DNA from: Deltaproteobacteria bacterium
GTDB lineage: Bacteria; UBA10199; 2-02-FULL-44-16; JAAZCA01
DNA: 43,020 nucleotides
Direction: 5' to 3'
Assembly (NCBI GenBank): GCA_018645265.1
Contig: JABGOS010000060.1
Coordinates: forward strand, 1 to 43,020
This document shows positions 6,941 to 9,047 of the stretch, one piece after another (within the stretch, counting starts at the first letter, position 1; every line of letters starts with the position of its first letter). The translations under genes and the position numbers were made by a program. The notes beneath the pieces were generated by a model, which saw nothing but the letters and a program-made list of their open reading frames with translations, had not been told where the DNA came from and did no database searches.

Positions 6941-7106
6941 GATCAAAGAGGAGTACCAAGTTATGTATAGAATTTCAAGTATGTTAATTACTTGTCTATA
7001 TCTATATATCAGTATGTTAGCTGCTATATATGATTTTATACTTTAACTAGTGGTCGTTAATCTTCCGGTTGACATGAGGGTTCCCTTCGGTATAGGGTCC
7101 CGCGCC

Positions 7107-7460
7107 ATGCGAAGGAGACTTCTCAAATCCAAGATTCACGGGGCAACTGTTACGGATGCATCCGTTGAATATGAGGGATCGATCACGATAGATCGTGATC
7201 TGATGGAAGCTGCTGACTTTGTTGAATATGAGAAGGTTCATGTGTGGGATATTACGAATGGTCAGCGACTTATGACATATGTAATCGAGGGCGAGGGAGG
7301 CTCGGGTGTCATAGCAATGAATGGAGCTGCTGCTCGGTTGATCGGAAAGGGTGATAAGCTGATAATTGGTACCTATGCAGATTATGATGAGAAGGAAGTT
7401 TCTTCTTTTACGGTAAGAAAAATCTTTTTGGATGCAAACAATCAAATCAAGAAGGTCTAG
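7107..7460 (+). CDS. panD: Aspartate 1-decarboxylase (pantothenate/CoA pathway)
   Basis: Makes beta-alanine from L-aspartate for pantothenate and coenzyme A. The proenzyme cleaves itself at Gly-Ser to form a pyruvoyl group. I chose the ATG at 7107 because it gives the family N-terminus MRRRLLKSKIHGATVT and puts the cleavage site YEGS at Gly24-Ser25, the canonical position. An in-frame ATG lies 33 nt upstream and a further start 24 nt before that, but both add residues outside the family pattern. The rest (EGEGGSGVIAMNGAAARL, then DKLIIGTYADY) is typical, and 117 aa is close to normal. It is separated from the divergent KARI-like gene by an AT-rich gap that should hold both promoters. panB and panC are not nearby. 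Confidence 0.95.
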   Translation: MRRRLLKSKIHGATVTDASVEYEGSITIDRDLMEAADFVEYEKVHVWDITNGQRLMTYVIEGEGGSGVIAMNGAAARLIGKGDKLIIGTYADYDEKEVSSFTVRKIFLDANNQIKKV

Positions 7461-7532
7461 ATTGTATTATGCTGCTAGATTTTGAGCTACGATCTTCGTA
7501 CCTGTTGAACATAGTTAAAAGGGGTGGAATAC

Positions 7533-8087
7533 ATGGATATCCTGATTTATGATATCCCTGATGAAGGGCTTAAAATCGATGCTGGTAGTGGTGACGATTG
7601 GTTGAGCGGCGTGCTTATCGATGTTCTGGGTGGTTTAGTCGATAAAAACAGTGTTAGCGCTCAGCTGAACATCATGAGATACGATGATAACATCGATCTC
7701 CAAGGTTTGGTGCAATATAATACCAAGAGTACATGTGATAGGTGCCTTGCGAAATTTGATAGTCACTCCAATGTTGATATTCATACGGTGCTGATCCCTG
7801 TGAGTGATGGACGTGAGAGGTTGTCGGCAGGCGAGATCGAGGAGATTGAACTCTCCAGTGAGGACCTGGAATTTGGCTATTATGAGGGTGATAGATTTGA
7901 TCTTGCTGATGTGGTAAGGGAGCAGGTGCTTTTGGCTAGGCCCATGAAACATCTATGTAAACATGACTGTAAGGGGCTTTGCCAGAAATGCGGTAAAAAC
8001 CTAAATGAGGAGATCTGTGGATGCGAGGAGGAGAGTACCGATCCTAGATGGGCATCCCTAAAGGGTATTAAGGTCACTAAGAATTGA
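7533..8087 (+). CDS. yceD: YceD/DUF177 family protein
   Basis: Family protein linked to ribosomal large-subunit or 23S rRNA metabolism; it is almost always encoded next to rpmF, as here (82 nt upstream). The ATG at 7533 is preferred over an in-frame GTG at 7524 because AGGGG sits 8 nt before it. The central pair CDRCLAKF and a C-terminal cysteine cluster (CKHDCKGLCQKCGKNL, then CGCEE) could bind zinc; the DPRWASLKGIK ending is the standard DUF177 signature. 184 aa is a normal length. It opens the yceD-rpmF-acpP cluster. Confidence 0.93.
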   Translation: MDILIYDIPDEGLKIDAGSGDDWLSGVLIDVLGGLVDKNSVSAQLNIMRYDDNIDLQGLVQYNTKSTCDRCLAKFDSHSNVDIHTVLIPVSDGRERLSAGEIEEIELSSEDLEFGYYEGDRFDLADVVREQVLLARPMKHLCKHDCKGLCQKCGKNLNEEICGCEEESTDPRWASLKGIKVTKN

Positions 8088-8169: not shown

Positions 8170-8352
8170 GTGGCAGTTCCAAAAAGAAAAAAATCACAGG
8201 CTCGTCGTGATATGCGTCGCGCTCACAACGAAAAGATCAAAGAACGAAGCCTTTCAGAATGTCCGCAGTGCAAACAGCCGAAGCTACCACATCGCGTTTG
8301 CATCAGCTGTGGGTTCTATAAGGGACGTGAGATCATCAAGCAGGCAGTATAA
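8170..8352 (+). CDS. rpmF: 50S ribosomal protein L32
   Basis: Small basic ribosomal protein of 60 aa: [19 protein letters not shown] is the typical bacterial L32 N-terminus, and [18 protein letters not shown] supplies a four-cysteine zinc-ribbon. It starts at GTG (8170) with an AAAGGAG ribosome-binding site. In related genomes plsX and fabH/D/G normally follow rpmF; here the next gene is an ACP only 17 nt downstream, with no plsX. Confidence 0.97.
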
Positions 8353-8369: not shown

Positions 8370-8612
8370 GTGTCGCATAATGCTATCGAGAATAAGGTTG
8401 TTGAGATCGTTTCAGATCAGCTCGGTCTGTCATTCGATGACGTGCATCCTGCTTTGTCCTTCAGTGATGATCTTGGTGCCGATGATCTAGATTTCGTAGA
8501 ACTCCTCATGGCGTTTGAGGAGGAGTTCGAAGTTGAAATCAGTGACGATATTGCAGAGCGTCTTGAGAAAGTTCAGGATATAATAGATTTTGTTTCTCTG
8601 AAAACGAATTGA
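8370..8612 (+). CDS. acpP: Acyl-carrier-protein-like protein lacking the phosphopantetheine serine
   Basis: An 80-aa four-helix ACP by overall sequence: the helix II region DLGADDLDFVELLMAFEEEF aligns with the canonical [20 protein letters not shown], and the acidic C-terminal half is typical. The serine of the D-S-L motif, which carries 4'-phosphopantetheine, is Asp39 here; the DNA reads GCC GAT GAT CTA GAT, so the substitution is in the sequence and not a frame error. Such a protein cannot be modified at the usual site, and there is no Ser or Thr at the neighbouring positions. It sits where acpP belongs (before rpiB-glyA in this gene order), but fabF, fabG, fabD, fabH and plsX are all missing. 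It may be a relic, or an ACP fold retained for protein-protein interactions. GTG start, poor ribosome-binding site. Confidence 0.85.
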   Translation: MSHNAIENKVVEIVSDQLGLSFDDVHPALSFSDDLGADDLDFVELLMAFEEEFEVEISDDIAERLEKVQDIIDFVSLKTN

Positions 8613-8618
8613 GGGAAG

Positions 8619-9047
8619 ATGAGAATCTCCATAGCTTCCGATCACGCTGGTTTTGATTTAAAAGAGGATCTCAGACAGCACCTATCAGAAAAGGGCCACG
8701 AAGTTCTAGACCTAGGTCCTACAAATAGTAACAGAACCGATTATCCGGATTACGCAAAGAAGGTCGCACTCTCCGTTCAGCATAGCGAAGTGGAGCGTGG
8801 TGTTTTGGTCTGCGGTTCGGGTATAGGTATGTGTATAACGGCCAATCGCTTCAAGGGTGTTAGAGCGGTGGTTCTGCATGACCAATATGACGCCCAGATG
8901 AGTCGTTGCCATAACGACGCCAATCTCGCCTGTTTTGGTTCAAGGGTTTCGGACAGATCGGCTGTAAAGGAGCTGCTCGATATTTTCCTCACCACCTCCT
9001 TTGAAGGCGGGCGTCACACCCCAAGGGTCGCTAAGATCGAAATATAG
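8619..9047 (+). CDS. rpiB: Ribose-5-phosphate isomerase B
   Basis: Interconverts ribose-5-phosphate and ribulose-5-phosphate in the pentose phosphate pathway. The RpiB/LacAB signature is clear: MRISIASDHAGFDLK with active-site His9, the catalytic cysteine in VLVCGSGIGM (Cys65), and HNDANLACFGSR. 142 aa is the usual length. It follows the ACP-like gene by 6 nt and is probably co-transcribed with it and with glyA. Its ribulose-5-phosphate product is a substrate of RibB encoded 4 kb downstream. Confidence 0.96.
   Translation: MRISIASDHAGFDLKEDLRQHLSEKGHEVLDLGPTNSNRTDYPDYAKKVALSVQHSEVERGVLVCGSGIGMCITANRFKGVRAVVLHDQYDAQMSRCHNDANLACFGSRVSDRSAVKELLDIFLTTSFEGGRHTPRVAKIEI

Follow-up and report, generated by a model that had tools for sequence, protein, structure and literature searches.

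A family-wide loss of the phosphopantetheine serine in an acyl carrier protein encoded at the acpP locus of a bacterial lineage

Acyl carrier protein (ACP) is considered to be both universal and essential as a carrier. The ACP encoded at the acpP locus of the window (the whole stretch of 43,020 nucleotides that was analysed) has an aspartate, Asp39, in place of the serine to which 4'-phosphopantetheine (Ppant) is attached. The change is family-wide and real, it occurs in a protein still under selection, and a eukaryotic counterpart is already known. The protein is probably an ancestral AcpP that is dead as a carrier and that was retained after the loss of type II fatty acid synthesis (FAS-II) for non-covalent protein contacts, most plausibly docking.

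The gene, its product and its neighbours

The serine-less ACP gene lies in the order DUF177-rpmF-ACP-rpiB-glyA-nrdR-ribD (rib genes), which is common to most of the relatives read (Table 1). Its reading frame is intact and the product is VSHNAIENKVVEIVSDQLGLSFDDVHPALSFSDDLGADDLDFVELLMAFEEEFEVEISDDIAERLEKVQDIIDFVSLKTN. The codons around Asp39 read GCC GAT GAT CTA GAT. The protein scores 42.6 bits against Pfam PF00550 (PP-binding; cut-off 20.8) and 80.6 bits against NCBIfam TIGR00517 (acyl_carrier; cut-off 70.45), and since the latter score exceeds its cut-off, automatic annotation would label the protein a normal ACP. The GAT codon and the two profile matches bear out the initial annotation, made from this DNA alone, in its description of an ACP-like gene with Asp39 for serine at the acpP position.

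Table 1. Coordinates of the serine-less ACP gene, its altered codon and the neighbouring genes in the window
Feature	Position	Strand	Evidence
panD, aspartate decarboxylase (pantothenate/CoA supply)	7050..7460	+	PF02261
YceD/DUF177 (23S rRNA accumulation protein)	7524..8087	+	PF02620
rpmF (ribosomal protein L32), directly upstream of the ACP gene	8170..8352	+	PF01783
acpP-locus ACP with Asp39 for the phosphopantetheine serine, 80 aa, GTG start	8370..8612	+	PF00550, TIGR00517, fold prediction
Codon 39, GAT (Asp); Ser in ACPs	8484..8486	+	alignment with 29 Ser-bearing class relatives
rpiB, starting 6 bases past the ACP stop	8619..9047	+	PF02502

AlphaFold2 applied to an alignment of 18 natural sequences predicts a confident ACP fold (pLDDT 95.7) in which residue 39 opens helix II; this model was used instead of the single-sequence model, which is poor (pLDDT 60.8). 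A Foldseek search with the model finds ordinary ACPs as the nearest solved structures, among them holo-AcpP 7pdi (TM 0.92, rmsd 0.5). The acidic residues of helix II through which ACPs are recognised are kept, and DLGAD-x-LD, the next Glu and EEEF are invariant across the four family sequences. What is absent is the serine at the start of helix II (in the motif D-S-L), the site of Ppant attachment, and because this serine is missing the protein is expected to have no covalent carrier function, in line with the earlier statement that it cannot carry acyl chains in the usual way. It is also the sole PF00550 match in its own genome, in a profile search with E values of up to 10.

Distribution of the serine loss and selection on the ACP

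The comparison covers 46 genomes: the window genome (G000), three other genera of its family (G001-G003), five members of the same order (G004-G008) and 37 more of the class. At the same syntenic locus, the four genera of the family replace the serine by Asp (GAT), Glu (GAA), Thr (ACG) and His (CAT), whereas serine is kept in all 29 other class members aligned at the ACP locus, the five order relatives included. Serine in all relatives of the lineage would have refuted the initial annotation; the family has none, and Asp39 is itself not fixed. The fragmentation of the window genome (2.24 Mb in 161 contigs, 95.6% complete) might raise the suspicion that a sequencing or assembly artefact lies behind the missing serine, a suspicion that can practically be dismissed given that serine is absent from four separate genomes of four genera and that the codons differ. 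The G001 sequence, moreover, recurs in a separate public collection (L080).

The family forms one clade (support 0.998) in the tree built from the flanking proteins, and its sister is the serine-bearing G004 (0.913). Because the family is one clade with a serine-bearing sister, the simplest history would be a single loss of serine in the family ancestor followed by drift at the site. Elsewhere in the class the gene itself has gone: ACP is not matched in G019, G024, G034 or G026, there is no ACP remnant at their rpiB genes, and the first three of these genomes have no match to a phosphopantetheinyl transferase (PPTase). Given that the ACP gene is deletable in the class, its retention without serine in this family is more telling.

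Of the 80 columns of the family alignment, 29 are invariant in all four sequences. The serine column, with its four different residues, lies between a run of five invariant columns and a run of two; column shuffles reproduce such a flanked variable site 580 times in 100000 (a post hoc test). Pairwise maximum likelihood estimates of omega from codons range from 0.007 to 0.29 among the family ACP pairs, the values being rough in most of them, where dS is saturated, and each of the four family pairs tested rejects omega = 1 (2dlnL 9.1 to 50.1). Judged from these codon comparisons, the remaining ACP sequence is under purifying selection. The view that the gene is not decaying at random is thereby upheld. 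The accompanying suggestion was that the fold is selected, perhaps because of protein contacts; of this, the selection stands and the contact function is probable.

Constraint on the family ACP is nevertheless relaxed relative to serine-bearing class relatives, because the protein evolves faster than in those relatives and its omega exceeds that of rpiB. Identity among the family ACPs is 48-56% at a GlyA identity of 75-83%, compared with 71-84% at 74-80% in a serine-bearing group of the class. In the least saturated pair (G001-G002, the only one moderately unsaturated for dS) omega is 0.29 for ACP and 0.068 for rpiB. Such relaxation would be expected if ACP and AcpS, the modifying enzyme, were functionless relics of FAS-II held inside essential operons (rpmF-acpP-rpiB and pdxJ-acpS) and slowly decaying. 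The faster evolution of ACP within the order, the loss of catalytic residues from both proteins (see below for AcpS) and the loss of the whole ACP gene elsewhere in the class all agree with slow decay. Even so, it is an unlikely account of the data: neutrality is rejected in every family pair tested, none of the four genera has a stop or frameshift in copies that have diverged by about half, and DLGAD-x-LD, the motif around the replaced site, is otherwise invariant in all four.

Fatty acid metabolism and AcpS

The FAS-II partners of ACP are missing from the window genome, which would make its fatty acids with a type I enzyme. PlsX was found in none of the 46 class genomes, and neither the FabH C-terminal domain nor a free-standing FabF was found in G000-G008. 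The ketosynthase matches in these nine genomes are thiolases (identity confirmed in G000 and G003), large multidomain frames (G001) and one 3138-residue protein in G000. The latter (L183:4097-13513, G000:C45) is a type I fatty acid synthase (FAS-I) of the fungal/mycobacterial type, comprising acyltransferase, helical, dehydratase, ACP (PF18325, Fas_alpha_ACP, Ser-type), ketoreductase and ketosynthase parts, and it is followed by its own AcpS, in which the metal-binding Glu is intact, and then by a biotin carboxylase/carboxyltransferase (acyl-CoA carboxylase). FAS-I is patchy: its ACP domain occurs in 10 of the 46 genomes and, among family and order members, only in G000. A second, serine-bearing ACP in the window genome, as contemplated in the initial annotation, thus exists only as this internal FAS-I domain; there is no second free ACP, and the acpS sought along with it is present with an altered metal ligand. 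In G002 and G003, the searches found neither a serine-bearing carrier nor any further PF00550 match or FAS-I carrier domain, and no PPTase besides AcpS.

AMP-binding acyl-activating enzymes and PF01553 acyltransferases are present in all 46 genomes, and the PF01553 frames of about 890 and 300 residues probably correspond, by their length, to PlsB and PlsC. With acyl activators and acyltransferases present and PlsX, FabH and free FabF absent, gene content suggests that CoA esters or FAS-I can take the place of a free ACP in the handling of acyl chains. Lipid A acylation via LpxA was also considered, and no LpxA was found above the cut-off. Most class members retain a serine-bearing acpP although they are without PlsX and mostly without FabF or FabH (e.g., L002, L004, L015 and L037-L051). 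G001 encodes a 6068-residue frame in which ketosynthase and carrier domains recur (L185, G001:C8), probably a large modular polyketide synthase.

The canonical acpS gene adjoins pdxJ and is intact in the family. The product of the G000 copy (L173:9142-9516, G000:C63) scores 93.6 bits against TIGR00516 (cut-off 59.8) and keeps the metal ligand Asp8, with the other ligand, Glu58, replaced by Gln. G000, G002 and G003 have Gln at position 58, G001 and G004 have Glu, and G005-G008 have His or Gln. The glutamate is therefore replaced in 7 of the 9 order genomes (L173-L177, L186 and L187), some of which have a serine-bearing ACP, and each of the 12 AcpS proteins compared from elsewhere in the class keeps it (Fisher p = 0.0003 for order versus rest of class, with relatedness ignored). 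In AcpS structures, Glu58 and Asp8 contact phosphate and metal (PMC3447402), and in a group II PPTase the replacement by Ala of Glu151, the counterpart of Glu58, abolishes activity (PMC4103896). AcpS with Gln58 may consequently have lost its activity.

The altered AcpS bears on whether the ACP could still act as a carrier, either through a different prosthetic group on the replacement residue or elsewhere in the protein, or through non-covalent binding of acyl ligands. The kept ACP fold would accommodate such a role, which is nonetheless very improbable considering that the serine site holds four chemically different residues, that three of the four family members have a matching AcpS whose metal ligand is altered and that the family alignment has no alternative conserved serine nearby. 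Another proposal is that a pseudo-ACP and a pseudo-AcpS, both having lost catalytic residues, are kept as a non-catalytic pair within this one order. If true, a whole bacterial post-translational modification system would have become a complex with a structural or regulatory role. The proposal is doubtful, and the two losses do not fully coincide: G001 lacks the serine and has Glu in AcpS, and the sister family keeps the serine with His or Gln.

Known systems and the likely role of the protein

On the favoured explanation, that of a carrier-dead AcpP kept for docking, the window ACP would be the ancestral AcpP in a lineage from which FAS-II has disappeared. At the level of gene content, fatty acids would be handled either as esters of CoA or by a type I synthase, so that a free ACP would no longer be needed as a covalent carrier. 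The serine would then have been lost once in the family ancestor, and the four different residues would reflect later drift, with the ACP fold and the helix-II docking surface staying under purifying selection throughout. The serine-less ACP would most likely be a small acidic docking or scaffold protein recognised non-covalently at helix II by a putative partner, for which the retained AcpS with its altered metal ligand is the one candidate with some genomic evidence. Other candidates are SpoT-, cysteine-desulfurase- or ribosome-linked partners.

The closest parallel is the mitochondrial ACP of Plasmodium falciparum, which carries no Ppant in an organelle that has lost FAS-II and which is essential by binding Isd11-Nfs1 (PMC8547962). 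The window ACP resembles it in having no Ppant serine, in the loss of FAS-II and in the conservation of the protein. The two differ in that the Plasmodium protein sits in a eukaryotic organelle, where it stabilises a cysteine desulfurase complex that includes the LYR adaptor Isd11, whereas the window protein is encoded at a bacterial acpP locus and AcpS is retained in altered form. The Plasmodium case would thus have a bacterial counterpart, and no report of a carrier-dead bacterial ACP was found in the open-licence papers searched.

With bacterial AcpP (TIGR00517; E. coli AcpP and P. putida 7pdi) the window ACP shares the fold, the acidic helix-II motif and the family score, and it differs in lacking the modified serine and in coming from a genome in which FabF, FabH and PlsX were not found. 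Non-carrier roles of E. coli AcpP that need no prosthetic group are similar to the role proposed here, although E. coli AcpP keeps its serine and its carrier role. Apo- and holo-AcpP stimulate the E. coli MukB ATPase to the same extent (PMC8602292), and in glucan synthesis ACP acts without needing Ppant (Therisod and Kennedy 1987, cited in PMC6158461). A role in Ppant-independent osmoregulated glucan synthesis was rejected for the window ACP, as MdoG is absent from all 46 genomes. An interaction with IscS like that of E. coli AcpP is less likely for a serine-less ACP because it depends on Ser36 there (PMC13343975).

The partners of ACP outside fatty acid synthesis are hard to study, the carrier role being essential, and a lineage without the carrier role isolates the other roles. 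There is also a practical consequence for annotation. Automatic annotation, curated models included, calls the window protein a functional ACP, and inferring FAS-II from the presence of acpP and acpS can therefore mislead.

Other serine-less ACP-like proteins (an 87-residue protein of Flavobacteriia with Met, and proteins of Nostoc) share DLGAD-x-LD and likewise have no serine. The window ACP differs from them in being the only free ACP of its genome and in lying at the acpP locus; the Flavobacteriia and Nostoc proteins presumably stand beside a normal AcpP. In records of Flavobacteriia and related bacteria, the conserved 87-residue protein has Met or Ile for serine (DLGAD[MI]LDMVEL; L052, L081, L091, L131, L135, L147 and L160). 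In a wide DNA pattern scan, which is not a census, the matches listed are mostly unrelated reading frames. Near-canonical ACPs with other replacements also occur, with Ala at the serine site in a Verrucomicrobiaceae MAG (L149:5358-5630, minus strand) and Glu in a gammaproteobacterial MAG (L142:7532-7999, minus strand).
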